Part shown: positions 1 through 18,281 of the stretch, piece after piece
Position numbering within the stretch: position 1 is the stretch's first letter
How the letters are laid out: every line of letters starts with the position of its first letter
Source: a virus
Virus record (IMG/VR): IMGVR_UViG_3300006920_000341
Location: 1-20,093 of that record
Strand: one strand, 5' to 3'
DNA: 20,093 nt
Notes under the pieces: model-generated
Databases searched by the model: none
What the model saw: only the letters and a program-made list of their open reading frames with translations
Told to the model about the DNA's origin: nothing
Translations under genes and position numbers: made by a program

Positions 1-684
1 AAAAAGCCAGTAGCTAAAAAGCCAGTAGCTAAAAAGAAAGCTATGGTTAAAAAAGAAGATGTGGTTGCATTTGATGTTCCAGTTGTGGATCCTATTATTC
101 TTGATGAAGAACAGGTTATCGATGGTGCTAAAGAGAATGCTCAGATTGCTAAGGCAATGAGTGAAACAAAATCTCCAGACCTTAGTGATGAAACTATTAA
201 TCCTAATTCAGAATTAATTGAGCACATCAAAGAGATTCGTAAGAATGCTGACAGGATGCAAAAGATTATTTTAGGAAATCGAAACATTTTTAGTGCTTCT
301 TTAAATGATTCTATGAATAACGGTAGAGCTTGGTTGGGCCAACTACTTGGTGCTATTGGAACACAGAATCCTTATAATGTTGAGGTTAAAACAGCATTTG
401 ATATTCCTGCTACTACAGATGTTGTAAAAGAAGATAAAGAGATTGCTGCTGATGTTCGTGAGTTTAGTCTTCTTGGTTCTTTAGAAGCTACATTAGAAGC
501 ACGCGAAGGAATATCTAGTATTAAAAAGTCTATATATTCTTTAATTGCTGCTTGTTATGAAAATGGTACAAACGGTTATTTTAAAGATGCAGTTAAAGTA
601 AATGTTAGTATTACTAATGCTTGGTCACATTATTGTGAAGCACGTTTTGAATTAGGATATAAACTCGCAAAACTTAGAAAATAA
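1..684 (+). CDS. Partial Acb2/Tad1-hairpin-like protein with lysine-rich KKPVA repeats
   Basis: The reading frame is open from base 1, so the gene begins upstream; 227 residues are visible. The first 14 residues are a Lys/Pro/Ala repeat (KKPVA twice, then KKKA), like the basic tails of H1-like DNA-binding proteins. An ATG at base 43 is in frame, but the repeat reads straight through it. The body is helical. The stretch NNGRAWLGQLLGAIGTQNPY, followed by a P-T-T-D-V segment, resembles the R/W-L-G-x-x-L-G / NPY pattern I associate with small phage proteins of the Acb2/Tad1 hairpin family, which bind cyclic nucleotides and block CBASS or Thoeris signalling. A second helical half (REFSLLGSLEATLEAREG onward) could be a diverged repeat or an unrelated domain. 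The stop codon directly abuts the chaperonin start, implying coupled expression. The coding call is firm; the family call is from memory of sequence patterns and is tentative. A structural or DNA-binding protein is the alternative. Confidence 0.7.
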   Translation, partial: KKPVAKKPVAKKKAMVKKEDVVAFDVPVVDPIILDEEQVIDGAKENAQIAKAMSETKSPDLSDETINPNSELIEHIKEIRKNADRMQKIILGNRNIFSASLNDSMNNGRAWLGQLLGAIGTQNPYNVEVKTAFDIPATTDVVKEDKEIAADVREFSLLGSLEATLEAREGISSIKKSIYSLIAACYENGTNGYFKDAVKVNVSITNAWSHYCEARFELGYKLAKLRK

Positions 685-2343
685 ATGAACAAAAATATTA
701 TATATGGTGATGAGGCTCGTAAAGGATTGCTTTCGGGTCTTGAACAAATTGAAAAAGCGGTAAAGGTTACATTGGGTCCAAGCGGATCTAATGTTCTGAT
801 TAGGGTAAAAGGTGAGGCTCGTCCTTTCTCGGTTAAGGATGGAGTAACAGTTGCTAGAGAAGTTTTCTCTGACGTACCTATTGAGATGGTTGCTATAGAA
901 TCGGTTCAGGATGTTGCCAACAAATCTGATGAACTAGCAGGAGATGGTACCACGACTGCAACAGTTTTGGCCGCAGCTATTTTCAAAGCTGGAGTTAACT
1001 TAGATAAAAACCTCAACCGCTTAGAAGTTAAAAGAGGTATTGATAAGTGTATTTCATTAATTGTAGATGCCTTAGAGTCAAAATCTATTTCGGTTAAAGA
1101 TTCTCCAAAAATGTTAAAGCAAGTTGCTTTGATATCTTCTAATAACGATGAGGAAATTGCAGATTTAGTTATTCAAGCTTACGAAGCTGCTGGAAAGCAA
1201 GGTATCGTAAACATCAAACGATCTAGAACATATGAAACGTATTTGACTACAATTCAAGGAATGAACTTACCAATGGGGTTAGCTTCTCCTTACTTTATGA
1301 CAGACATGAAGAACGAGACTTGTGAGTTTGACGAAACCTATGTGTATCTTAGTAATGAGCCTCTTACAGATGTAAGTGAGAACTTCAATCATTTGTTAGA
1401 AACTGTTAATGAAGAAACGGCTAATTTACTTATTGTAGTTCCTAAAATCGATGATGTTGTATTGTCAATGTTAGTTACTAATGTCGCAAAGGCAAACTTT
1501 AAAGTATGCGTGTGTGTAGCTCCAGACTTCGGTGATGAGCAAATGCATACTCTTAGAGATATAGGTTCTGCCCTTGGCAAAGCTCCGTTTCTTAAAGAAG
1601 AAGGTGTTCAGTTTAATAGTCTTGCTAAAGAGGATGTAATGGCTTCTTTACCAAAAGCAAAAGGCATTAGTGTTGGTTTACAATATACTTCCATTAAAGG
1701 CGTAGCTGGAACAAAAGAATACAGAGCGAAGGTTCGTAAGCAAATGGAAGAAAGAGCAGATTCTTTACGAGAAAAAATAAAAACTGTAACAACTCCTTAT
1801 GAGAAAAACATATTACATATGCGTATCTCTAGGCTTACTGATGGTGTAGCTTATATAAATCTTGGTGCTTATTCAGACACAGAGTTTCTAGAAAAGCAGC
1901 ATAGGATTAACGATGCTTTGCACGCGACTAAGAACGCTGTTCAGGAAGGTATTATTCCCGGTGGTGGAACGGCTTTGCTATCATTAAGCAAGATGGAAAT
2001 TGAAACAAGAAACAATAATCCATCTTTACAGGCTGGTATTGATATTGTGATGGAAGCTATTAAATCTCCATTTAATCAGATAATAAGTAATGTAGGAGTT
2101 GAAGAAATAGATTTAGAAGATTTTGACAATTGTCAAAATAATTGGGAACATGGTTATGATGCTAGAGCTGGTGTCTTTGTTGAGAGTATGATTAAACAAG
2201 GAATTATAGATCCAGTAAAGGTTACGCGAGTAGCTTTGCAAAACGCAGGTTCTATTTCTGGAATGCTATTGACAACAGAGTGTGTAATAATTGACCCATC
2301 GGTTTACAGTAAAACTACGAGTCCTAATCCAATGTTCGGATGA
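685..2343 (+). CDS. groEL: GroEL-type chaperonin (Cpn60, group I)
   Basis: This is a 552-residue ATP-dependent folding chaperonin, close to the roughly 548 residues of E. coli GroEL and collinear with it. Visible group I signatures are KVTLGP (27-32), KDGVTVARE (51-59), the nucleotide-binding AGDGTTTATVL (85-95, including the Asp equivalent to E. coli D87), NDALHATKNAVQEG (409-422, with Asp410 at the place of catalytic D398), PGGGTAL (425-431) and DPVKVTRVALQNA (509-521). The apical domain (about 190-375) keeps the hydrophobic helices that hold substrate and co-chaperonin. The flexible Gly-Gly-Met tail of bacterial GroEL is missing; the protein ends NPMFG. The ATG follows the previous TAA with no gap, and the TGA overlaps the next ATG (ATGA), so translation is coupled within a phage operon. 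No GroES-like gene is visible. A role in folding capsid or tail proteins is inferred. With ATPase residues intact it should be active, using either host GroES or an unrelated phage co-chaperonin. Confidence 0.97.
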   Translation: MNKNIIYGDEARKGLLSGLEQIEKAVKVTLGPSGSNVLIRVKGEARPFSVKDGVTVAREVFSDVPIEMVAIESVQDVANKSDELAGDGTTTATVLAAAIFKAGVNLDKNLNRLEVKRGIDKCISLIVDALESKSISVKDSPKMLKQVALISSNNDEEIADLVIQAYEAAGKQGIVNIKRSRTYETYLTTIQGMNLPMGLASPYFMTDMKNETCEFDETYVYLSNEPLTDVSENFNHLLETVNEETANLLIVVPKIDDVVLSMLVTNVAKANFKVCVCVAPDFGDEQMHTLRDIGSALGKAPFLKEEGVQFNSLAKEDVMASLPKAKGISVGLQYTSIKGVAGTKEYRAKVRKQMEERADSLREKIKTVTTPYEKNILHMRISRLTDGVAYINLGAYSDTEFLEKQHRINDALHATKNAVQEGIIPGGGTALLSLSKMEIETRNNNPSLQAGIDIVMEAIKSPFNQIISNVGVEEIDLEDFDNCQNNWEHGYDARAGVFVESMIKQGIIDPVKVTRVALQNAGSISGMLLTTECVIIDPSVYSKTTSPNPMFG

Positions 2344-2588
2344 TAAGTAGCTACGCAAAAGAAGAGGACTTGCAAACAGAGGAAGTTGCAAGTTCTCAAA
2401 TTAAAGAGATTGGACATACTGCTTCAGGAAAAGCAATATATATTAGATTTGGTAATGGAAGTATTTATAGATACAGTCCATCAACTCAAGAAGATTATGA
2501 TAATTTCTCTGAATCCGAAAGTAAAGGAAAGCATTTTCATAGTGTTATAAAAAGAAGTATTAACGCAACAAAAATTCACAATGGCTAA
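2340..2588 (+). CDS. KTSC-domain small protein
   Basis: This 82-residue protein matches the KTSC domain pattern: SSQIKEIGH (about 19-27), a short beta hairpin AIYIRFGNGSIYRY (32-45), and an end segment Y..F..SESKGKHFHSVIKR (53-71), which corresponds to the K-[TS]-x-S-C-like terminal helix seen across the family. KTSC domains are short, occur alone or fused to nucleases and replication-type proteins, and their function is poorly defined; nucleic-acid contact has been suggested. The gene starts inside the chaperonin stop (ATGA) and overlaps the following gene by 8 bases, so it belongs to the same translationally coupled block. No signal peptide or membrane segment is seen. The domain call is good; no specific role can be given from the sequence. 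Confidence 0.8.
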   Translation: MISSYAKEEDLQTEEVASSQIKEIGHTASGKAIYIRFGNGSIYRYSPSTQEDYDNFSESESKGKHFHSVIKRSINATKIHNG

Positions 2589-2979
2589 AAAAATAACAGA
2601 AATACCAACATCCGTATTATTAAATTACCAACAGTTACTTGAGTTTACAAGTAGATCACTATATGGTTTATTTCAAGAAGCTGAAACATTAGCAAAGACT
2701 GGCGAGGTAAGTCCGGGATATGTAAGTAAGATTGAAAAAGAATTTCACTTTAAGCTTGGAAAGAATAATGAAGCCAGCGCATCGATTGATAAAGAAATTT
2801 GCAAACGTGTAAGAGGACAATTCGGAAAAGATGTAACTTTGTCTGATGATATGGCTAGGATCTCAGAAGCTTTTGAGCAAGAAAGAGACAGGATGTTTAA
2901 GCTTAAAGAAAAAAAGGACTTAAAACCTTCTATAAAATCTAAGCCTAAATCTAATTTTAAAATTGTAAAAGACGATTAA
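2581..2979 (+). CDS. Hypothetical small basic-tailed phage protein
   Basis: I do not recognise this 132-residue protein. It looks helical from residue 10 to about 110 (LLNYQQLLEFTSRSLYGLFQ, then a charged stretch), with a lysine-rich tail (about 107-130, KEKKDLKPSIKSKPKSNFK) that could contact nucleic acid. There are no cysteine clusters, signal peptide or membrane segments. It overlaps the KTSC gene by 8 bases and shares one base with the next gene (TAATG), which supports it being a real, coupled gene. Small proteins just before terminase genes can be small terminase subunits; a helical protein with a basic tail is compatible with that, but nothing here is diagnostic. Confidence 0.75.
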   Translation: MAKKITEIPTSVLLNYQQLLEFTSRSLYGLFQEAETLAKTGEVSPGYVSKIEKEFHFKLGKNNEASASIDKEICKRVRGQFGKDVTLSDDMARISEAFEQERDRMFKLKEKKDLKPSIKSKPKSNFKIVKDD

Positions 2980-3299
2980 TGATTTCATTTAAACACACAG
3001 GATTTATAATAGAAAATGTTTCTGATATTGAAAGGCTTTTTCCTCAAGATTTAGAAACTTTACTTAAAAGTGAAATGAAAGGAGATTTAATTTTTATCAT
3101 TCCTTCTAAGTTCAAAAGCAATAAAAACAAGACTATTTATAAAATAGGTTGGCTTGTGGAGTTTTTAAAATTTATATATCCTGAAAAAAAAATTGCTGAT
3201 TTCTGTGAAATAATAAATGAAAGATACCAAGTCTTTTTAGATCGTCGTGCAATAGAAAGAAAAATGAAAGAGTATGCCAGTAATGATATATTCAAATGA
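2979..3299 (+). CDS. Hypothetical small protein, possible DNA-binding helices
   Basis: This 106-residue protein is unidentified. The N-terminal half (1-50) alternates hydrophobic strands and acidic helices. The C-terminal half (about 52-100) is basic and helical: IGWLVEFLKFIYPEKKIADF, then FLDRRAIERKMKEYAS. The W..L..FIY....I.....I...F....... R.IERK layout loosely recalls the C-terminal DNA-binding part of Bacteroidota RteC-like proteins; this is a weak resemblance noted by eye. The start overlaps the previous stop (TAATG). It is the last gene before a hairpin terminator, so it ends the chaperonin transcription unit. A small terminase or a regulator are possible roles; neither is shown. Confidence 0.72.
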   Translation: MISFKHTGFIIENVSDIERLFPQDLETLLKSEMKGDLIFIIPSKFKSNKNKTIYKIGWLVEFLKFIYPEKKIADFCEIINERYQVFLDRRAIERKMKEYASNDIFK

Positions 3300-3304
3300 A
3301 AAAC

Positions 3305-3334
3305 AGGGGATCCAAATGGTTCCCTTATTTTTTT
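3305..3334 (+). terminator. Rho-independent terminator after the chaperonin block
   Basis: AGGGGATCC (3305-3313) pairs with GGTTCCCTT (3318-3326) around an AAAT loop, with one T-T mismatch and one G-T wobble. It is followed by TTA and a run of seven T residues (3328-3334). It begins 5 bases after the stop of the preceding gene, the expected place. The T-run also forms the upstream part of the promoter-like box that follows. Confidence 0.75.
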
Positions 3335-3343
3335 ATAAATTTG
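3329..3343 (+). promoter_or_regulatory. Promoter-like box (Bacteroidota -7 type), copy 1
   Basis: TTTTTTATAAATTTG contains TAAATTTG (3336-3343), which fits the Bacteroidota -7 consensus TAnnTTTG. The same 15 bases occur at 8471-8485, again just before a gene. The ATG at 3348 lies only 4 bases after the box, so a transcript from here would be leaderless or nearly so. No clear -33 TTTG/TTG element is seen 19-21 bases upstream, so a phage-specific or activator-dependent promoter is possible. Confidence 0.5.
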
Positions 3344-3347
3344 ACAA

Positions 3348-3944
3348 ATGTATTTAGTATCCATAAACCCAAAGACCGGTCTTTTAGAGCTTGGAGAAAA
3401 CAATGATGGTTTACTTGCTATTAAAGAATTTCGTGTTATATTAGACATTGAAGAATTAGGTCTTCAGTGCTTAACTGCGATTGCTCTCGTAGCTGACTAT
3501 CAATCTCCGAAGAGATTCTATAACATGAAGGACAGACCTAGAGCTGCAATGGAAGAGGTTACTGGCGAGCGTGACAAGTTTATTTGGAAAAGAAAGGAGA
3601 TTCAGGACGCGTTGATTAAATACGATGCTTTGCAATACGACCCAACTCTTGAGGAAGGTAAGATACATTACCAAAGGAAAGTGAATAAGCTTAGGGAGTT
3701 TAGTGAGTCTGAGAAAATGTATGGCAAAGGCCATAAAGGTCCTAATGGGGAAGAACTTACATTTAGAAATCCTGCAACCGTAGCTAAAGAGCTTCGTGAT
3801 ATAAATGCAGATATAAAATATTTTGAAGAACAAGTACAAGGAAAAGATATTTATGAGAAGTCACCAGTTAAGCAAGGATATACTTTGTCTAGATTGGAAC
3901 AGCTTGTAGATAAGAAGAATTCTTTTTATCAGAAAGTCAGATGA
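3348..3944 (+). CDS. Conserved-looking pre-terminase protein of unknown function
   Basis: This 198-residue protein lies directly before the large terminase gene. The N-terminal 50 residues look like a compact beta/alpha start (YLVSINPKTGLLELG, then EFRVILDIEELGLQCLTAIA). The rest is helical and highly charged: a segment VADYQSPKRFYNMKDRPRAA (about 48-67), followed by long helices with coiled-coil character (ERDKFIWKRKEIQDALIK, AKELRDINADIKYFEEQVQG). I recall similar 'SPY/SPK...R...E' proteins at this location in crAss-like phages, but cannot name a function. Position and helical build make a small terminase or packaging-associated virion protein the leading guesses. The ATG sits 4 bases after a promoter-like box, so this gene may open the packaging/head transcription unit. 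Its stop (ATGA at 3941-3944) is followed by an 80-base G-rich gap. Confidence 0.82.
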   Translation: MYLVSINPKTGLLELGENNDGLLAIKEFRVILDIEELGLQCLTAIALVADYQSPKRFYNMKDRPRAAMEEVTGERDKFIWKRKEIQDALIKYDALQYDPTLEEGKIHYQRKVNKLREFSESEKMYGKGHKGPNGEELTFRNPATVAKELRDINADIKYFEEQVQGKDIYEKSPVKQGYTLSRLEQLVDKKNSFYQKVR

Positions 3945-4024: not shown

Positions 4025-6202
4025 ATGGAAGTAAATATAGATTGGAATAAATTTGATAGTACTCTTTATCGGCCATTAGTCGAAATGCCAATACCAGATT
4101 TTAATCCTGGTACTTTAGCATATGATGATTTTTGGGATGAACAGGATAATCGCTGTCTTAATGGATATAAGCCTTCGAGGTTTATGCCATCGATATCCAA
4201 TGAGCATTACTTCTATTTGAACATGTGTAAAATTGAGCTTCTTAAAAAAGGAGCTACAAGAAAGTCCTATGATTACCCATTTTATCGGGAGTTAGATCGT
4301 AGGCTTTTTGATGAAATAAAAGGAGCTAAAAGACACAAGCATGGTCTTATTGTTGGAAAGCCTCGTAGGGTAGGATTGTCTTGGGTAGGTGCTACAACAT
4401 CAACCTATGAGTTGTTATTTTACAAAAACGGTAAGATTGGTGTAGCAGCTGGGCAAGATGATAAAGCTCAAGATTTCTATGAGAAAGTAAAAGCGCTTCT
4501 AGATAATGTACGTCCAGAGTATGCTTCAGGTATCATTACTAAAAATAGTGAGGAAATAAAACTAGGATATAAGTACATTGATAACAAGCAACCAAAGGAA
4601 GGTGGTTTGCTATCTCAAATGTTTATGAAAACGATGTATGCCAAGCCAACAGGGTTTGAGGGTAAATCGTTAGCATTAGTAATTTTTGAAGAGGCTGGTT
4701 TATTCGCGGATATAGTAGCAGCTTTCAAATCTACCGAACCTTGTTTCAAAGATGGTTCAAATCAGTTTGGAACTCCAATCGTTTATGGTACCGGTGGTGA
4801 TATCGAGAAAGGATCTAAAGGTTACAAGAAAATGTGGTACGCTGATAAGGATGTGTACAATCTTAAAAAAGTATTTATTTCTGCGACTGACTTTTACCCT
4901 GGTGATGGTATTCCAGATAAAGAAACTAAGAAAACAATTTCATTCTTTGATTTCAGAACAGGACGTACCAATCATAAAGCTGCAAGAATACATATTGAGG
5001 CAGAGCGTGAAGCAAAAAAGAATTCAGAAGGCTTCGTAAAACATATTCAGTCATACCCACTTAAAGAGTCTGAAATCTTTATTAAAAACTCAGGAGGTTT
5101 ATTAAACCGTCAGAAGTTAAATGCGCAACGTAACAATTTAGAAAACTGTCCTTACCTAATTCAAACAGGTAGATTAGAGTGGACCACTAAAGACCCAACA
5201 ACACTTAGGCTTATTGCTCGAGCAAAAAACATAAAGGAAGAAGATAAAATTCATTTCCAAAGAGGTTCTAAGATTAAATTTATTGAAGATGAAGAACTTG
5301 GTACTATTAAAAAACTTCTGGACCCAGTTGACCAGAAAAAGGTTGCGTACAATCCTGATATTATCGGTTGTGATAGTTATGATGATGAGGTTGCAGAAGG
5401 TACTGGTTCATTAGGAGCTACTATCGTATATCGTTGTTTTCATGGGGTTACTCATCCTTACAATATGCCTATCGCGTATGTAATGGATAGGGGTACTTCT
5501 GATAATGATGATGAATTCTATTCTAACACATTAAGACTTGCTATCTATTATGATTCAGAGGTATTGTTAGAATGGACTAAGATTTTAATTAAAACTCATT
5601 TCGAAGATGTCGGAGCTTTACAGCATTTAAAAGGTCGGCCGGACTTAAGTGGTGAGGGCTATAATTCAAAAGCAGTAAACCAGTATGGATTTAAAATGTC
5701 TAACCAACATGCTTTTAAAATAATTGTAAGATTACTAAAGAAAGAGGTTAATGAGAATTTCAACAACATATGGTTTGAAGAAATACTAGACCACTTGATT
5801 GATTTTGGTGATGCCAATGCCGATTTAGCTTCAGCTTACGGAATGGTTCTTATTTCTAGACTTGATAGTTTTGGAGATTTAACCGATGGTATTGATGAAG
5901 ATACTCAGTATGAAGGTGATATTTTAGATAACATGGGGCATTGGGTTATTGAAGATGGTATTCGTATCTTTAAGACCTACGCTGAAACTCAGGACTATGA
6001 TGATGGGTTTGATCAAGAGAAGATTAATGTATGGAATCCAGAGTACGACCTCAGCGGAGAAGATAAGAAAAGCTACGAACAGGCTAAAGTAAGTTCTATA
6101 AATAAGATTAAAAAAGAACGTGAAGATATCCTTAAAAAGTACGGAAATGACCCAATGGCTTTTGTACTTGAACAGCATCACAATAAATTGAATGAAAATT
6201 AA
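4025..6202 (+). CDS. terL: Terminase large subunit (TerL)
   Basis: This 725-residue protein is the DNA-packaging motor: an N-terminal ATPase that threads DNA through the portal and a C-terminal RNase H-like nuclease that cuts the concatemer. The Walker A-like loop is GKPRRVGLSW (111-120), a deviant form without a canonical GKT/GKS. Walker B with catalytic glutamate is LALVIFEEAG (216-225), and the coupling motif is GTPIVYGTGGD (249-259). The nuclease domain begins near 440 with IIGCDSYDDE (446-455), whose Asp450 is the likely first metal ligand, and includes HLIDFGDANADLASAYGM (590-607) near the distal acidic cluster. Residues 675-725 are a charged helical extension. The protein is long for a TerL but in the range of crAss-like enzymes. 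The portal gene follows after 21 bases, the standard order. No Shine-Dalgarno site precedes the ATG. Confidence 0.93.
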   Translation: MEVNIDWNKFDSTLYRPLVEMPIPDFNPGTLAYDDFWDEQDNRCLNGYKPSRFMPSISNEHYFYLNMCKIELLKKGATRKSYDYPFYRELDRRLFDEIKGAKRHKHGLIVGKPRRVGLSWVGATTSTYELLFYKNGKIGVAAGQDDKAQDFYEKVKALLDNVRPEYASGIITKNSEEIKLGYKYIDNKQPKEGGLLSQMFMKTMYAKPTGFEGKSLALVIFEEAGLFADIVAAFKSTEPCFKDGSNQFGTPIVYGTGGDIEKGSKGYKKMWYADKDVYNLKKVFISATDFYPGDGIPDKETKKTISFFDFRTGRTNHKAARIHIEAEREAKKNSEGFVKHIQSYPLKESEIFIKNSGGLLNRQKLNAQRNNLENCPYLIQTGRLEWTTKDPTTLRLIARAKNIKEEDKIHFQRGSKIKFIEDEELGTIKKLLDPVDQKKVAYNPDIIGCDSYDDEVAEGTGSLGATIVYRCFHGVTHPYNMPIAYVMDRGTSDNDDEFYSNTLRLAIYYDSEVLLEWTKILIKTHFEDVGALQHLKGRPDLSGEGYNSKAVNQYGFKMSNQHAFKIIVRLLKKEVNENFNNIWFEEILDHLIDFGDANADLASAYGMVLISRLDSFGDLTDGIDEDTQYEGDILDNMGHWVIEDGIRIFKTYAETQDYDDGFDQEKINVWNPEYDLSGEDKKSYEQAKVSSINKIKKEREDILKKYGNDPMAFVLEQHHNKLNEN

Positions 6203-6223
6203 TACCTTTATAAAAAATATATT

Positions 6224-8470
6224 ATGAGTGTTTTAGGAATTCCAGACCAGACGATACCAGAATCGTTAAAGGACAAGCAGTGGCATGTAAACCACAATCT
6301 TGCTCACTCTGCTTTTACATTAAGCACTAATTACGACGACCAAAGAAAATATATTTTAAAGATGTTTCGCGGTTATAATGCCGAACTTGGCCCTGCAGAA
6401 ACTAAATTAGCACAAGCAATTACTTGTCCAAATGGATATGATTTAGGTATTGAGTATATAGTTTACCCTCTTATTCAATCAAAAATAGAACAAGCGATCG
6501 GTGATTTTATTCGTAGACCTATAAAAAGTAGAGCCTACGCAATGGACAAATCTTCTAAGAATGCTAAGTTTCAGAAGAAACTTGAAATGCTCGGTGAAGA
6601 AATTATGAGAGACATAGCCGAACAGTTAAATCCTGATTTGGGTTATACTCCGGAAACTCCATTAAAAGATTTAGATCTTCCTGAAGATGTAGAAGAATTC
6701 TTTTCACAAGACTTCAAATCTGTAGCTGAAACAGTAGCTAACGATTTAATAGATTTATTCTTAGATGTACGTGGAGAAAAGAAAAAACTTAAAGGTATGT
6801 TTAGAAATTACCTTATTTCTGATAGAGGACACGCTGTATTAGATAAAGCTAAAGGACATACGACAATGTACGGCACACATCCTTTAGATTGTGACTATGA
6901 TTTAGATCCTTATAAAGTTGTTCAAGACGACCATGAGTTCTTTTATCAAAGTTGGTGGCTTACTCAGAATGAAATTTACAATACATTTCCAGAACTTGAC
7001 AAAGGGCAAAAAGAGTCTATAAATATCATGTTCACGAATATGACATCTTTAAGCACTAGCTCTCATGACTCGGAGCAACTATCATCTTCAATGAAATATG
7101 ATGGTTGGTATAAGACTGACAACAAAGTGAATCGCATTCGTTTAAGTAAATGTATGTGGAAGTCTCAAAAGACAGTTAACATTAAGGTTAATGAAAATAA
7201 GGAAGGTCAGAAATTTCATAAAAAATTAAAAGAAGGAGATAGAATTAGAAAAACTGATACTATCAAAAAATACATTGGTGAAGTTCCTAGACATTGTATT
7301 ATGTTGGGCCCAGAGATTGTATTAGAGTGGGGGGTAATGGAACAGAGACTATCAAGGAAAGATGCTCCTTGGGCATGTACACTGCCTGTTATTTCTATTG
7401 TAAGAGATAATGACAGTGGTACATCTCAAGTTAAATCAATGGCTTCTAAATTATATCAGCTTCAAGAACTAGCTTCGGAAACGTTATTTGAAATTCGTCT
7501 TGCTCTTAAGAAAGTTGGTAATTCAAAAGTTCTTTTATACGATACTGCCCAAACACCAAAAGCATTTACTAAAGGTGGTTATGAAAATGGTCTTAACAGA
7601 GTAATGCACCATGTTAAGAAGGATCAGTTTCTTATGTTTAATTCTAAAGACAAAGGAGCAAAACAAAACTTCAATCAATTCACAAGTTTAGACCTCAGTC
7701 AAAAAGGAGTTATTCAAGATTTATTTAATGGTCTTGCTATTATAGAAGACTTAGCTGCTAAGTTCACTGGGTTTACACCAGAGAGGGAAGGTAACATTGG
7801 TCAATACCAAACAGCGACAGGAACCGACAAAGCTATTAGAGCTTCGGCTGCGCGTACTGAAGTGTTCTATACACCATTCGATGAGTTTGTCCAGGCTATT
7901 TTAAGCAAGGCTATCATGAAAATGAAATTTGATTATGAAGAAGGTGAAGTGTTGCAGTATGTAGTTGGAGAGTTTAAAACAAAATTCTTAAAATTATTTA
8001 AAGAGTTTTTCCTTGCTGACATGGGTATATATCTAGGTGATGCAAGAAAAGACCAAGAAATGAGCGATATCATAGATAGAGCTGCTGAGGTTGCATTAGG
8101 TAATAGCTCGGCGCCAGAAATGGCTTTAGGTCTTATTGAAGTATTTGAGGGAGATAGCGCAAATGAAAAGAAAGCTGTTTTCCAAAGAATGGTTAATTCT
8201 ATGGCTAAACTTAGAGAGGAACAAGCTAAGGCAGATGCAGAACAAGCACAAGCTGCTATGGAAGCAGAAGCCAAAAGCAAGGAAGATGATAGAACTCTTA
8301 CTAGGGATGGTTATCAAAAAGACAAAGATGTGGCATACATTTATAAAGATGGTAAAGCGCAAGATGGTCTTCAGAAAAATCAATCTCAAGAACGTCAAAC
8401 AGCAGCAAAGCTTGATGTTGATTTAGAAAAATCTAGAGAGCAGAGTAGGCAAAAAGAATCAGTAAAATAA
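6224..8470 (+). CDS. Portal protein
   Basis: This 748-residue protein is the probable portal, forming a dodecameric ring at one capsid vertex through which TerL pumps DNA. Supporting features are its place between terL and the scaffold/capsid genes, its length, and segments typical of crAss-like portals: YPLIQSKIEQAIGDFIRRP (81-99, portal body), YDLDPYKVVQDDHEFFYQS (225-243, wing), GQYQTATGTDKAIRASAART (about 526-545, near the stem helices). From about 660 the protein becomes a charged Ala/Glu/Lys/Gln coiled coil (EEQAKADAEQAQAAMEAEAK) and ends in a hydrophilic tail, compatible with a C-terminal barrel or a packaged-DNA-contacting extension. The 21-base gap upstream is A/T-rich (TTTATAAAAAATATATT) with no Shine-Dalgarno motif. 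No frameshift or truncation is visible. Confidence 0.88.
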   Translation: MSVLGIPDQTIPESLKDKQWHVNHNLAHSAFTLSTNYDDQRKYILKMFRGYNAELGPAETKLAQAITCPNGYDLGIEYIVYPLIQSKIEQAIGDFIRRPIKSRAYAMDKSSKNAKFQKKLEMLGEEIMRDIAEQLNPDLGYTPETPLKDLDLPEDVEEFFSQDFKSVAETVANDLIDLFLDVRGEKKKLKGMFRNYLISDRGHAVLDKAKGHTTMYGTHPLDCDYDLDPYKVVQDDHEFFYQSWWLTQNEIYNTFPELDKGQKESINIMFTNMTSLSTSSHDSEQLSSSMKYDGWYKTDNKVNRIRLSKCMWKSQKTVNIKVNENKEGQKFHKKLKEGDRIRKTDTIKKYIGEVPRHCIMLGPEIVLEWGVMEQRLSRKDAPWACTLPVISIVRDNDSGTSQVKSMASKLYQLQELASETLFEIRLALKKVGNSKVLLYDTAQTPKAFTKGGYENGLNRVMHHVKKDQFLMFNSKDKGAKQNFNQFTSLDLSQKGVIQDLFNGLAIIEDLAAKFTGFTPEREGNIGQYQTATGTDKAIRASAARTEVFYTPFDEFVQAILSKAIMKMKFDYEEGEVLQYVVGEFKTKFLKLFKEFFLADMGIYLGDARKDQEMSDIIDRAAEVALGNSSAPEMALGLIEVFEGDSANEKKAVFQRMVNSMAKLREEQAKADAEQAQAAMEAEAKSKEDDRTLTRDGYQKDKDVAYIYKDGKAQDGLQKNQSQERQTAAKLDVDLEKSREQSRQKESVK

Positions 8471-8485
8471 TTTTTTATAAATTTG
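8471..8485 (+). promoter_or_regulatory. Promoter-like box (Bacteroidota -7 type), copy 2
   Basis: This is an exact 15-base copy of the element at 3329-3343 (TTTTTTATAAATTTG), again holding TAAATTTG, which fits TAnnTTTG. It begins right after the portal stop; the next ATG lies 13 bases past the box at 8499, giving a very short leader. No hairpin precedes it here, so it would add transcription of the scaffold and capsid genes to read-through from upstream. There is no convincing -33 element. Confidence 0.5.
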
Positions 8486-8498
8486 TTAAAACTAAACT

Positions 8499-9560
8499 AT
8501 GAATAAGCAAGGCACAGAAAACCTAGATTTCCAAGAAGACATGTTTCCCAAAAGCGATGCAAATGAGTTATTTGAATTTGACCAAGACGACTTGGACGAT
8601 AAAGATGATACTTTTGATCCAGAAGATTACGATGGTGTAGTTTTAGATAAAGACCCATTGTTAGTTGCTGCTGAAGAAGCTAAAGAAAATGAAGAAGAAG
8701 AGGAAGAGCAAACTGGGTTAAACTTTGAAGATAAAGGAGAAGAAGATAAAGGAGGAGACTTTGATATTGAAGCTTTGAATAAAAAAATGGATACTAACTT
8801 CGAGAATGAAGCTGAGTTTAAATCATTTTTAGATGGAAAAAAAGAAGAAGAAGAAAAAGAAACTAATGAGAAAATTCTAGAAGATGCTGAACTTACCCTT
8901 GACTTTTATGAGCCTTTATTAAAGTTAGAGGACGAAGCTCTTATGACTAAGCAGTTTGAAATGATTGCTATCAACAATAAGCAAAATCTGAATGACGAAG
9001 ATGTAAAAATTGATATTGAAGAGCAAGTTCAAGATTTAATAGATTCAAGAACACTAAGCCTTCAAGCTGCTAAATTAAGAGGTGAGATAGAAAACTTAAA
9101 AGTAAATCCAGCTATAGAGGCAAAGCGTGGGGTTGTCTCTCAACGTGAAGCTGCTGCGGCGGTATTAGAAAAAACAGAAAAAGAAGAATTACAAAATGTA
9201 TTTGCCAAGATATCTAAACAACAAAGTTTTTTTGGGGTTAATCTTGACAACAAAAAAATAGTCGATACGTACAAGGATGTACAGTCGGGTAAGTTTATCG
9301 ATGAGTTGAAAGCCGATAAAGAAGCTTTAGCTGAGCTCGCCCTGTTCCGAATATACAAAGAGGAAATCTTTAAATCTTCGACAGGGATGAAGTATGAGGA
9401 TGGTATTAAGGCCATGTTGGACGAATTCAAAAACAACAAGGATTCTAAGCCAATTCCCGGAACTAGTAGTAGACGAAGTTCCCCAGCAAGCAGCGCTTCA
9501 ACACAAGATGGACTAATTGCAGATGTGCTTTATAACGCACCTGTGAAAAGAGAAGAGTAA
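8499..9560 (+). CDS. Probable head scaffolding protein
   Basis: This 353-residue protein sits between portal and major capsid genes, the usual place for a scaffold. Residues 10-125 are extremely acidic, with Asp/Glu runs (DQDDLDDKDD at 28-37, EEEEEE at 65-70, KKEEEEKE at 114-121). Residues 125-315 are helical and rich in Ala, Glu, Lys and Gln (for example REAAAAVLEKTEKEEL), with no Cys. The C-terminus is a Ser/Thr/Arg/Pro-rich linker (GTSSRRSSPASSAS, 321-334) and a short end segment, a layout like scaffold proteins whose C-terminal tail grips the capsid protein. A scaffold would guide assembly of the procapsid and then leave or be degraded; no protease gene is visible nearby. The evidence is composition and position, not sequence identity; an internal core or cargo protein is the alternative. 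Confidence 0.65.
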   Translation: MNKQGTENLDFQEDMFPKSDANELFEFDQDDLDDKDDTFDPEDYDGVVLDKDPLLVAAEEAKENEEEEEEQTGLNFEDKGEEDKGGDFDIEALNKKMDTNFENEAEFKSFLDGKKEEEEKETNEKILEDAELTLDFYEPLLKLEDEALMTKQFEMIAINNKQNLNDEDVKIDIEEQVQDLIDSRTLSLQAAKLRGEIENLKVNPAIEAKRGVVSQREAAAAVLEKTEKEELQNVFAKISKQQSFFGVNLDNKKIVDTYKDVQSGKFIDELKADKEALAELALFRIYKEEIFKSSTGMKYEDGIKAMLDEFKNNKDSKPIPGTSSRRSSPASSASTQDGLIADVLYNAPVKREE

Positions 9561-9676
9561 ACATGAACAATGTTCTAGTTATTTTTCAAAATTATGTATC
9601 CTTTTGCAAAGTGGCCAAGGGCAATTAAGTAGGAGGTTTTTAAAACAAATTATTAATTTTAAAAATCTATTTTAAC
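9561..9676 (+). promoter_or_regulatory. 116-base leader of the capsid gene
   Basis: This is the longest gap in the window. It contains a small inverted repeat GAAC-AAT-GTTC (9565-9575) with a T-rich stretch after it, a perfect AGGAGG (9631-9636) placed 40 bases before the capsid ATG and so too far to serve it, and an A/T-rich final 40 bases. A 21-codon ORF (9563-9628) ends 2 bases before AGGAGG. No TAnnTTTG box was found; TATCCTTTTG (9597-9606) is only a loose approximation. It probably acts as the 5' leader or promoter region of the most highly expressed gene. Confidence 0.4.
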
Positions 9677-11353
9677 ATGGGAGTTTTATTAAGAGGGAGC
9701 CAAGAAAGGTTTAATCCCCAAATTCACACAGAAGCAAATTCATTAACAACGTTGATGAAGAAAGACTTCGCAGTCAAAAGAAAGACTTTTGACTTATTTA
9801 CAAAATACAACAAGTTTCAATCTTGGATGTATTACTCTGGTCGTGTAAACCAAGGTATCAAAAAAGGAAAGCTTAAGGCTGCCTCTAATGATATCAATGA
9901 CAATGCATATCGTGTTAATTACGAAGGTATGGACATCTTACCTGCATATTCATTTGGTCAAGCACAAATAGGTACTCTTTTTGATGCCGCCAATCCAAAC
10001 CCTGATATGACGGGTAATGGATTTACAAATACTGGAACTGTCAATGCTGGTTTTACCAATGTTGCAACAGACACGTTAATTTCATTTTCGGTAACTCACG
10101 ATCCGACTTCTGAAATTTATGGTGACAAATTCAATCCTAACGACAAAATTGTTTTAGACAATGGTTTAGGTGTGAACGTTATCATAGTTTCACCAGGTCG
10201 TAGAGCTTCTACAAATGACCATTATGTGTATGATGGAAAAACCATTGGACCTGCTGCTTTGTTTAGCACAAGTCATTTGGCTGATGGGAATGTTCTTACT
10301 GAAGCTGGTTCTGCTTTCGGAGAAGGTTCATTGAAAGGTTCACAAAGAACCAACCGTAACAAGTGGAGAATTAACTATTCTTTTATTACTCGTTACAGTT
10401 TGACAATGACTGGTTCTGCTAAAAAGCAAAAAATCGCTTACATCTATAACTCTGACAAGAGAGATAGTAAGATGTGGGAATTTGATGAGGTTCTTCGTGG
10501 GGAAAGCGTTTTCCGTATGATGAATGAATTAGCGTTACGTTATTCACGTATCTCTATGGATCCATCAACTCACGCATGGTTTGAAAACTATGGAACAAAT
10601 GCACTTACTGTAAGTGGGTTCCAAGCTGAGTCAGGTATCGAAGCTCCGGTTATCGGTAATGGTTGGATTCCAGAAATCGAAGATAATGCGACTTTCGATT
10701 ACAATCCAAACAACGGTTTATCGCATACGATTATTGAAGCGATTACTAATGTACTTGCAACTCGTTCTCCAAAAGGGAATAGAGGTAATGTATTCTTAGG
10801 AGTTACTGACCGTATCGGTTGTACTGCTTTTGATTATGGAATGAAGCAATTGATGCAGTTTGATTTGAACACTGCAACTTCGGGGGCTTCAAACATTGTT
10901 TACAATGTTGCTTCTGGAGAGAAAATGACTCTTGGATTCGAAGTTACTATTTACAAGTATCTTGGTAACGAATTCGTAATCATTGAAGACGAGTTATTAA
11001 ACCACCCGGGATTATTCCCAGTGAATGGTGGATTGGTAGGAACAGGTCACATTTATATTCTGAACGCAACAGATATCGATGGTGTACCGAATTTTGAGGT
11101 GCTTTCTCGTTCAGGTCGTAATATGATCAGAAAGAACGTAGATGGAATGCATTCTTTTGATCCAAGTTCTGACCAAGGTAATACAGCTGCAAGTGGATTT
11201 GACGGATGTCAAACACACATGCTTTCTGAGTTAATGGCTGTTCTTTATGATGTTCGCTCATGCGGAATTCTTAAAGCTACAACTCCTTTTACAGGAGGTG
11301 CTTTAACTGGAACTGCTATTGCAGATGCGGGAGCGAATACGTTCACGTTCTAG
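9677..11353 (+). CDS. Major capsid protein
   Basis: This 558-residue protein is the likely main shell protein, expected to have the HK97 fold. It follows portal and scaffold genes and is followed immediately by a strong terminator, as usual for a highly expressed capsid gene. The N-terminus (1-60) is a positively charged helical arm (LTTLMKKDFAVKRKTFDLFT), then comes a region that would form the E-loop and P-domain (Arg/Lys-rich 61-80). A Gly/Thr/Asn-rich insertion (about 105-220) could be a surface domain. Residues 225-330 hold helix-rich core sequence (MNELALRYSRISMDP), and the C-terminal 120 residues alternate strands and loops as in an A-domain, ending Gly/Ala/Thr-rich. It has few cysteines and no signal peptide. 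The reading frame ends in tandem TAG TAG. The capsid call rests on context, size and general resemblance to crAss-like capsid proteins. Confidence 0.85.
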   Translation: MGVLLRGSQERFNPQIHTEANSLTTLMKKDFAVKRKTFDLFTKYNKFQSWMYYSGRVNQGIKKGKLKAASNDINDNAYRVNYEGMDILPAYSFGQAQIGTLFDAANPNPDMTGNGFTNTGTVNAGFTNVATDTLISFSVTHDPTSEIYGDKFNPNDKIVLDNGLGVNVIIVSPGRRASTNDHYVYDGKTIGPAALFSTSHLADGNVLTEAGSAFGEGSLKGSQRTNRNKWRINYSFITRYSLTMTGSAKKQKIAYIYNSDKRDSKMWEFDEVLRGESVFRMMNELALRYSRISMDPSTHAWFENYGTNALTVSGFQAESGIEAPVIGNGWIPEIEDNATFDYNPNNGLSHTIIEAITNVLATRSPKGNRGNVFLGVTDRIGCTAFDYGMKQLMQFDLNTATSGASNIVYNVASGEKMTLGFEVTIYKYLGNEFVIIEDELLNHPGLFPVNGGLVGTGHIYILNATDIDGVPNFEVLSRSGRNMIRKNVDGMHSFDPSSDQGNTAASGFDGCQTHMLSELMAVLYDVRSCGILKATTPFTGGALTGTAIADAGANTFTF

Positions 11354-15236: not shown

Positions 15237-18200
15237 ATGCCATTTATAGACTTAACAACTGGAATACGGCCGATAACACAAACTCCGTTAAATCCAAAAG
15301 AACATTTTCAAACACTTCAAGAAATACAAGACCTTAGTGGAACTGAAAGTTCTGATTTTTATACCTTCTATGAAGGTATGATCGCTTATGTTGCTAATAA
15401 TGAATATGCATATATTTGGAGAGAAAGAAAAGTGTCAGAGACAGGAATTTCTGTTATGGCTCAAGATTATACTTATCCTAGTACACCTATTGTTGATGGT
15501 ATAGATTATAGTGGTAGATCGTTTAATTTCTTTGTTTATAGTGTAAAATCTTTTGTAGACTTACATGATGTTTTAGATAGTACATATTATGGCAAAGAGG
15601 GCTACGCCCCTATAGTAACTGCAAATCCTCTTTTAGAAGGTGATTATTATCTTCAACTTAAAAAAGCATTAACCCTAGCTGATATTTACAGAGCTAATGC
15701 ACCTATTGATTTTGGAGTATCTTGGGTTTCTGGATTTGTATATGACGTCTTTTGTTCTAAGTATATTATAAATCAGTTAGATTACAATTTATTTGCATCA
15801 AAAAGAATCACACTTACTAATGGAGACGTTACATTTAATAGAATTGACCTCATTATACTTCGATTAGATTTAAACCTGAGTAATCCTATAATTACAGTTC
15901 GTGAAGGAGACCCGTCTGGAGATCCTGTTGAGCCAACTATAGATTTAACCAGGGAAGTTATTCTTTCAAGAAGAACCGTACTAGCTAATGCTGTTGTAGA
16001 CCCAACAGCAACTATTGACCTTGTTTTTGATGAAAATATTGAATGGACAGGAACAAGTTCAGCTGGAATAAACTTTAATGACGTTTCAATAGCTCCATTT
16101 ACTGGAACTAAAAGCGTAAATATACCCGAAACATTAGCAAATACTTTTCCTAGAACAATATTTTGGGATAGAGGTTCACTAACTACTTATGTTAGAGAAA
16201 ACAATTTTATATTTAGTATTATAAATAATGTTACTAGTTTCAGAGATACAGTATTTGAGTTTAAACTTACTAACAGTGTTAGTGGGGCTAATTTCATTAA
16301 AACTGTATCTTTATTTGAAATGCAGAGTTATGGTTTTATTATCCAAAGCACAGACTGGCATGTAATCAATATACCACTTTCATTATTTGTTGTTGATAAT
16401 TCAGGAGAAACACAATACGATGGAATTTCTATATCCTTTACAAACAACAATGATATTAATATTGATAGAGTAAACATACAAGGTGGCGTACCTGTAGTTA
16501 CATCTCCGGATATCTTTGTAAAAGAAGTTTTACCTGGTAGTGGAATATCTATTGATTCAACAGATCCAGAAAGACCTATTGTTTCTGTAATAGAACCTCT
16601 TGAAAGAAAAACAAATGACTCTTTTACTGGAGATAGATTAAAGCCAGTCAAAACAGACTTACATGGGTTTATGGTTGAAAAAGACACTAATGGATATGTT
16701 GGGTATGATGTTGCAAATGGAAATGAAGGAGCTTCTGCTATAGCAGGATTTAAAGCTAGGTTAAGTAGCCCAGAGCTTTACGCAACTCCTTATATTGGAA
16801 TGTTTGTATTTTCAAAAACTAATGCTCAAGCAAATCTAAGAGAGAAAACTACTGTTCAATCTTATGGAGATAGATTCGATACTGTTGGTCAAAATGGAGA
16901 TTATAAAATTTTGATTGGAAACTCATTAGGTGATCTTAATATATTTAATGAGGCATTTCAAGTTCAAGGAGTTACAGGTACCATAACAGCAGATATGATG
17001 ACTACAGCTGTTTTAAACGCAGCTTCAGGAAAAGAACTTACAACTGTTGAGTGGATTCTCTCTAAGTTGTTGCCAATGACTTTTAGTAATCAAATTATTT
17101 GTAATCAAGCAAATATAGCAACTACACTAGGTGCTACAATAGACTCTACGAAGGAATATTTTCTTGATGGTGTAATAGATTTGGGAGCAGTATCAATAGA
17201 AGTTCCTGCTGGAGGGATGAATATTAAAGGATATGATTTTAATATAAGTGGACTAACATCTTCAGAAGCAGCTTATACTATGTTTACAAGTCCTATCGGA
17301 GGTTCTGGTGATATTCTTTGGAAAGATTTTAAAATAGAAGTTACTGGTGCAGGCTCACAGGTTTTAGATATTGTAAGTGATACTGGGAATGAAGCATTTG
17401 AAATAGATAGAATAAATTTTAATAATTGTACTTCATTAGGTGAAATTGATAACTACAGACAAGGGTTAGAAACAGGAACAGGTAGATTTGGTGGTACTCC
17501 AAATTTGATTTTATCAGGTGTTTGGTCAGGTGGCTTTTTTATAGATGCTTCAATAGTTAGGGGTTTAACAGACGGAGCTTATGCACTATATGAAGCAGGA
17601 ACAGGATTTACAATGGCATCAAGGTTTAGGTCTAATCAGAATGTAGACTTAAATGCTACAGTTGCTTTATTAGACTTTGCCCCAGCTAATTTTACAAATC
17701 CTAGTACATTGCAATTAGATAAATGTTTAGTAACTCGAAATGGTGTTATAAATGCTGGTGATGCAACATTAATCCCTAATATATCACAAACTAATCTTGA
17801 AAGTATATGGCAAGGTAATGTAGGAATACAAAACACTTTTGTAGGAGGTAGTCTAAGCTTAACAGTAGAAGTGGAAAGCGTCATAACTACTCCAGGAGTA
17901 TTTGTAGATTTACTTGGAACTTTTGTAGATTCAGATTTACAACATTTTGATGTTCCCTTAAATGGACAACTTAGACACTTAGGGAATTCACCAAGAGAGT
18001 TTAAGGTTATATTTGAAGGAATATTAGTTTCTACTTCTGGAGATGAATTAGATTTAAAAGTAGTTGTATGGGATGATTCAGCAAGCGGATTTGTAGATTA
18101 TAAAATTACAAGAAGAGTGGTTAATAATTTGCAAGGCGGTAGAGATGTGGCTTTTTATACGATAATAACAAATATCATTTTAGATAAAAATGACTATGTT

Positions 18201-18281
18201 AAGCTACAAGTAGCAAACGTAGCAGCCACTAATAATATAACTGCTGAATTAAATTCAGATATTACAGTAGAAGAAAGATAA
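15237..18281 (+). CDS. Large tail fibre/spike-like protein with carbohydrate-binding-like and beta-helix-like domains
   Basis: This 1014-residue protein is probably the host-recognition fibre or spike. Residues 1-85 resemble the virion-anchor region of crAss-like tail proteins (PKEHFQTLQEIQDL, FYEGMIAYVANNEYAYIW). Residues 85-250 are mixed. Residues about 264-420 look like a carbohydrate-binding jelly-roll: an FEFKL strand, then DWHVINIPLSLFVV, YDGISISF and INIDRVNIQGG, the pattern of W-x-x-I-x-IPLS-x-F and DGI..F. A linker holds GSGISIDSTDPERPIVSV (434-451), common in phage fibres. Residues about 628-870 have short Gly/Asn-rich repeats (VPAGGMNIKGYDFNISGLTS) suggesting a parallel beta-helix. 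Residues 876-1014 form a compact beta C-terminal domain (FKVIFEGILV, LDLKVVVWDD, DYVKLQVANV), likely the trimer tip. No chaperone or lyase catalytic site can be named. The gene ends in three different stop codons in a row. Confidence 0.78.
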   Translation: MPFIDLTTGIRPITQTPLNPKEHFQTLQEIQDLSGTESSDFYTFYEGMIAYVANNEYAYIWRERKVSETGISVMAQDYTYPSTPIVDGIDYSGRSFNFFVYSVKSFVDLHDVLDSTYYGKEGYAPIVTANPLLEGDYYLQLKKALTLADIYRANAPIDFGVSWVSGFVYDVFCSKYIINQLDYNLFASKRITLTNGDVTFNRIDLIILRLDLNLSNPIITVREGDPSGDPVEPTIDLTREVILSRRTVLANAVVDPTATIDLVFDENIEWTGTSSAGINFNDVSIAPFTGTKSVNIPETLANTFPRTIFWDRGSLTTYVRENNFIFSIINNVTSFRDTVFEFKLTNSVSGANFIKTVSLFEMQSYGFIIQSTDWHVINIPLSLFVVDNSGETQYDGISISFTNNNDINIDRVNIQGGVPVVTSPDIFVKEVLPGSGISIDSTDPERPIVSVIEPLERKTNDSFTGDRLKPVKTDLHGFMVEKDTNGYVGYDVANGNEGASAIAGFKARLSSPELYATPYIGMFVFSKTNAQANLREKTTVQSYGDRFDTVGQNGDYKILIGNSLGDLNIFNEAFQVQGVTGTITADMMTTAVLNAASGKELTTVEWILSKLLPMTFSNQIICNQANIATTLGATIDSTKEYFLDGVIDLGAVSIEVPAGGMNIKGYDFNISGLTSSEAAYTMFTSPIGGSGDILWKDFKIEVTGAGSQVLDIVSDTGNEAFEIDRINFNNCTSLGEIDNYRQGLETGTGRFGGTPNLILSGVWSGGFFIDASIVRGLTDGAYALYEAGTGFTMASRFRSNQNVDLNATVALLDFAPANFTNPSTLQLDKCLVTRNGVINAGDATLIPNISQTNLESIWQGNVGIQNTFVGGSLSLTVEVESVITTPGVFVDLLGTFVDSDLQHFDVPLNGQLRHLGNSPREFKVIFEGILVSTSGDELDLKVVVWDDSASGFVDYKITRRVVNNLQGGRDVAFYTIITNIILDKNDYVKLQVANVAATNNITAELNSDITVEER

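Follow-up and report, generated by a model that had tools for sequence, protein, structure and literature searches.

A GroEL gene upstream of the terminase in a relative of the crAss-like phages appears to be paired with a strongly diverged GroES-like cap gene

The stretch of virus DNA analyzed here (the window, 20,093 bases) encodes a GroEL that is, with good confidence, a working group I chaperonin paired with a GroES-like, strongly diverged cap encoded by the phage itself, the two genes lying in the same operon-like block. The best reading of the data is a private, diverged, and roofless (gp31-like) GroEL-GroES pair located upstream of the terminase gene. An earlier note on this DNA had presented the GroEL as capless, but a diverged GroES-like open reading frame is found one gene upstream in a near-identical contig, as suggested by fold prediction, profile comparison, and synteny in 13 of 13 contigs. 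This gene lies just off the window edge and is too divergent for the family models, and thus, it was overlooked; the cap seemed to be missing because of where the window ends and of how sensitive the profiles are. The features discussed are collected in Table 1.

Table 1. Location of the chaperonin genes, their neighbors, and the related genes of a sister clade. Positions refer to the window unless a contig is named.
Feature	Position	Strand	Basis
groEL, group I chaperonin, 552 aa	685..2343	+	PF00118, phrog_5725, mapped D52/D87/D410 and groove residues
Putative GroES-like cap, 111 aa, outside the window	G001:46164-46499 = L008:6164-6499	minus	ORF and position; AF2/Foldseek/VIA-align; profile and shuffles; synteny
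w1, helical protein encoded between the cap gene and groEL	1..684	+	Conserved position; PF24729 Acb2_Tad1_hairpin matched weakly by relatives
KTSC-domain protein; its start and the groEL stop overlap (ATGA)	2340..2588	+	PF13619, 4.9e-13
Three small conserved genes (132, 106, and 198 aa) between groEL and terminase	2581..3944	+	Order conserved in relatives
Terminase large subunit, portal, 353-aa protein, crAss-type major capsid protein	4025..11353	+	phrog_6681, phrog_6547, PF23898
Putative GroES-like gene of G012-G015, overlapping the groEL start	L094:10105-10551; L090:4497-4949; L110:4149-4616; L135:6331-6780	-; -; +; -	Helix, profile, and model

The groEL reading frame contains no internal stops, and its product has the full-length Cpn60 domain architecture, matching PF00118 (7.4e-47, residues 22-537) and the PHROG family phrog_5725, "chaperonin groEL" (1.3e-117, residues 1-537). 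Aligned to E. coli GroEL, it keeps the ATPase residues D52, D87, and D398 (here D52, D87, and D410) and the hinge glycines G192, G375, and G410 (here G192, G387, and G422), and the GDGTTT motif is intact. The protein ends in ...IIDPSVYSKTTSPNPMFG, and the GGM-repeat tail is absent from it and from every phage relative aligned; such a tail is common in group I chaperonins, but the family is not defined by it. The groEL start codon directly follows the stop codon of w1 with no gap, the groEL stop overlaps the start of the KTSC gene, and the terminase, portal, and major capsid genes start further on, at 4025, 6224, and 9677. The earlier description of a full-length phage GroEL with intact ATPase and hinge signatures, without the Gly-Gly-Met tail and in a coupled block just before the terminase, is thus borne out. 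At the sites of contact between rings, the residues equivalent to R452, S463, V464, and E434 of E. coli are replaced and E461 is kept; these sites also vary among the named phage GroELs, so that the substitutions give no conclusion on ring number.

The window is a virus record of its own, 99.985% identical to part of the IMG/VR record 3300025652_000049 (G001; 76,423 bases), where it corresponds to G001:46114-26022 save three bases. Its relatives were gathered via their terminase and capsid genes. Three of those bearing GroEL (G007, G031, and G038) have repeated ends at 82-83 kb, suggesting that G001 is probably close to complete; repeated ends were also found in the GroEL-less G018 and G023. 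A six-frame Pfam search detected no Cpn10 in the window, in agreement with the earlier statement that no co-chaperonin gene lies there, and nothing above the cut-off in G001 or in 41 relatives, three complete ones included. Two rows fell below the threshold: the one in G013 pointed to the reading frame immediately before GroEL, and the other (G015:52096), some 8 kb away from GroEL on the opposite strand, is probably due to chance.

Searching beyond the window, as the earlier note had proposed, reveals in G001 the 111-residue reading frame of Table 1, predicted to have the GroES fold, which is located one gene upstream of GroEL and ends 49 nt before the first base of the window and 16 nt before w1. 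Its product contains ...VGVIEAVGEQGNAAAVGCVVFYHS...AVIAIRLDE..., resembling GroES. No Pfam or PHROG family recognizes this protein or its homologues as a co-chaperonin, the family was not found in the phage collection records by tblastn, and a single-sequence scan for further GroES-like genes returned only the query's own contig. The 198-aa gene at 3348-3944, in the slot of the "GroES" gp089 of Cellulophaga phage phi38:1, was weighed as a further cap candidate solely for its position and was set aside; it has no Pfam or PHROG match. Its product is encoded directly before the terminase in nearly all relatives, with or without GroEL, and is one of the more strongly conserved proteins of this region (about 34-60% identity).

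The assignment of the upstream protein is supported by structure prediction. An AlphaFold2 model built on an alignment of twelve homologues, which also provided the profile, is mostly beta and of moderate confidence (mean pLDDT 70.6, pTM 0.65). In a Foldseek search of the PDB, ranks 1-8 were Cpn10, GroES, Hsp10, and T4 gp31 (probability 0.95-1.00, E 0.01-0.10), and with VIA-align, ranks 1-15 were co-chaperonins (Z 6.5-7.9), followed by a ClpP-S2c entry (5.8) and by oxidoreductases of the GroES-like fold (at most 5.0). The GroES-like beta fold is shared with alcohol dehydrogenases, which counts against the identification as a cap. Compared by hhalign with a profile of 79 GroES sequences, the cap profile gave a weak match with a score of 23.4 (E 0.0019), a probability of only 14%, and a collinear alignment of 64 columns. 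One of 400 column shuffles reached this score, and scores of 8-11 were obtained with three control families of this operon. Searched against 177,635 solved sequences, the profile had Chaperonin 11 as its best row, in register, with an E of 0.91 that is not significant alone. Since a GIVL-type motif is absent, we limit the claim to "GroES-like": the protein is not a canonical Cpn10.

Every contig of the clade in which the DNA before GroEL is preserved (13 of 13) carries a homologue of the cap gene there. Six-frame searches of 10 relatives that lack GroEL detected none; these relatives are more distant, and some are truncated upstream. Twelve of the 13 syntenic homologues themselves built the profile. 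The co-occurrence is therefore partly phylogenetic, and it supports the pairing without being a proof of it. Neither of the two GroES-like types described here was found in G019 and G032, two relatives whose GroEL is 28-29% identical. A gene of 128-145 aa lies directly before GroEL in them (L136:13413-13799, minus strand; L137:248-685, plus strand); its product matches neither GroES-like type, and its end recalls GroES by eye.

Between the two VG motifs, the cap family has about 7 residues vs. 16 in E. coli GroES, which leaves no room for the roof hairpin. The mobile-loop region is present, lacking GIVL, and many members have F/W-x3-I/L instead. A comparable case is gp31 of T4, which has no roof loops and very low sequence similarity to GroES, and adopts the same fold (PMC6318259). 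Given the roofless cap, the lost GIVL, and an apical domain of GroEL that is more diverged than the equatorial one, we infer that ring and cap have become fitted to one another and not to partners from the host. In the likely cycle, patterned on GroEL-GroES and GroEL-gp31, an unfolded client would bind to the ring, ATP binding would recruit the small cap to the ring, the client would fold inside the closed chamber, and ATP hydrolysis would release it. Physical interaction, capping, clients, and ring number are, in this scheme, what we infer.

It could be proposed that this GroEL works as a ring alone, as in phages EL, OBP, and AR9, and that the small upstream protein is unrelated to it. A Pfam-recognizable Cpn10 is indeed missing from the 76.4-kb contig and from the three complete relatives, and capless function has been reported for other phage GroELs (PMC9598537, PMC7185714). 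We regard this proposal as improbable, since a protein of predicted GroES fold is fixed beside GroEL throughout the clade, a sister clade has a GroES-like gene of its own in that place, and the window GroEL is 34-38% identical to bacterial GroELs, whereas that of EL reaches 22% (PMC7185714). A very improbable proposal is that the phage GroEL uses the GroES of the host and that the upstream protein does something else. Several groove residues agree with it, Y203, F204, L237, L259, V263, and N265 being retained, but V264 is replaced by T, most of the relatives having a polar or charged residue at this site, L200 also differs, and the apical domain is only 26-28% identical to that of E. coli or Flavobacteriales GroEL vs. 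40-46% for the equatorial domain (26 and 40%, respectively, with E. coli).

The origin of the gene bears on a further alternative, a recent capture of a host groEL, which is hardly credible. The closest bacterial GroELs are mostly from Bacteroidota, the best with 38% identity. However, the nearest rows of all are the phage relatives (46-54%), and a maximum-likelihood tree of 110 GroELs, in which Dulem41, cr111, phi38, Panino, elemoA, and pG010 have uncertain places and long branches, places the window sequence apart from the bacterial GroELs, in a clade made up solely of phage sequences (SH-aLRT 98 and 96). Recent host capture is thus rejected. The protein is not nested within one host genus, the position that the earlier note had associated with such a capture, and groEL is, by its phylogeny, an old phage gene.

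The sister clade mentioned above, which is more distant, comprises G012-G015, whose TerL proteins are 47-48% identical to that of the window. Their gene in this position encodes about 150 aa, with a predicted N-terminal transmembrane helix followed by a GroES-like domain. The helix is hydrophobic (Kyte-Doolittle 2.1-3.5 over 19 residues), the domain profile scored 30.6 against GroES (best of 200 shuffles, 20.5), and the domain model (pLDDT 69) matches Cpn10 with a Foldseek E of 8e-4. The plain reading of these four sequences and the model is a putative membrane-tethered co-chaperonin. If it is real, such a membrane-anchored cap would have no counterpart among the studied chaperonins known to us. 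A broader scenario can be put forward only tentatively, and we consider it rather doubtful: that of a deep crAss-like lineage with GroES caps that are invisible to current models, fixed beside their own GroEL and adapted to it in mobile loop, roof, and apical groove, in whose sister clade the N-terminal helix would tether the cap to the membrane, the chambers docking at the inner membrane.

Phage GroEL-GroES pairs were already known in phi38:1, immuto, elemo, and cr111_1; what is new here is a cap family missed by current models and a putative membrane-anchored version. The Cellulophaga phages phi38:1 and Calle_1, which infect marine Bacteroidota, also encode a GroEL and, in its vicinity, a Cpn10 of their own, but their GroELs are 34-35% identical to that of the window, their Cpn10 is recognized by Pfam, and the pair lies among replication genes and not before the terminase. 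There are two GroES-type genes in phi38:1 (NC_021796.1), gp007 (4099-4374) near GroEL and the longer gp089 (49847-50431) directly before the terminase, which match the canonical GroES profile with 5.7e-20 (the profile includes gp007) and 8.2e-6, respectively. The order in CrAssphage cr111_1 (Steigviridae) is similar, GroEL being followed by a putative 10-kDa chaperonin and both genes preceding the terminase in the same direction, but its GroEL is 28% identical and its cap is located downstream of GroEL, several genes away. In the literature searched, we found no account of crAss-like GroEL/GroES pairs. The closest named phage GroEL (40%) is that of Flavobacterium phage immuto, with GroES directly upstream, although this is a 160-kb phage with an annotatable GroES in a replication context. 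The gp31 protein of T4 shares the GroES fold without roof loops and is among the top fold matches of the cap; it works, however, with the host GroEL, whereas the present phage encodes both the ring and the putative cap. GroEL homologues are also encoded by EL, OBP, and AR9, but these are more diverged and no co-chaperonin requirement has been reported for them (PMC7185714, PMC9598537), whereas here a protein of predicted GroES fold is encoded next to GroEL.

Judged by its TerL, which is 22-26% identical to those of named crAss-like phages, and by its capsid protein, which matches PF23898 Crass_capsid (3.1e-11) and only six named records at about 23% identity, the phage appears to be a deep relative of Crassvirales outside the described families, and the phage collection contains no isolate close to it. 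GroEL is patchy in the wider lineage, being present in 22 of 42 records, several of which are short fragments. From gene position alone, a use in virion protein folding is possible. At 61 kDa, the major capsid protein is somewhat bigger than gp23 of T4 (about 56 kDa), which itself slightly exceeds the capacity of the GroEL-GroES cage (PMC6318259). Against such a role, the GroEL-less relatives, complete ones included, have capsid proteins of about equal length, and the pair of phi38:1 and immuto is located near DNA polymerase and other replication genes.

These results remove one apparent lone phage GroEL and illustrate the ease with which such cases come about. Caps may be hidden likewise in other "GroEL-only" phages, a possibility that the authors of the EL work also left open (PMC7185714). 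In addition, the diverged pair offers a natural test of joint change in a chaperonin and its cap.

Two other proteins of the region deserve mention. The true start of w1 lies 33 nt before the window (238 aa; an in-window ATG at 43 would give 213 aa). The protein has two helical-hairpin motifs, and its place is conserved in L102, L106, L095, L130, L131, L133, L138, L140, and L141. There is a weak match to PF24729 Acb2_Tad1_hairpin in two members of the family (E 0.035), and phrog_1983 is matched by four (best 1.8e-5); w1 might be related to cyclic-nucleotide sponge proteins. Further downstream, a 1014-aa protein is encoded at 15237-18281. Its C-terminal 385 residues match phrog_16509 (1.6e-119), and the relatives share mainly the N-terminal ~100 residues; by sequence, it appears to be a modular, exchangeable tail or fibre protein.
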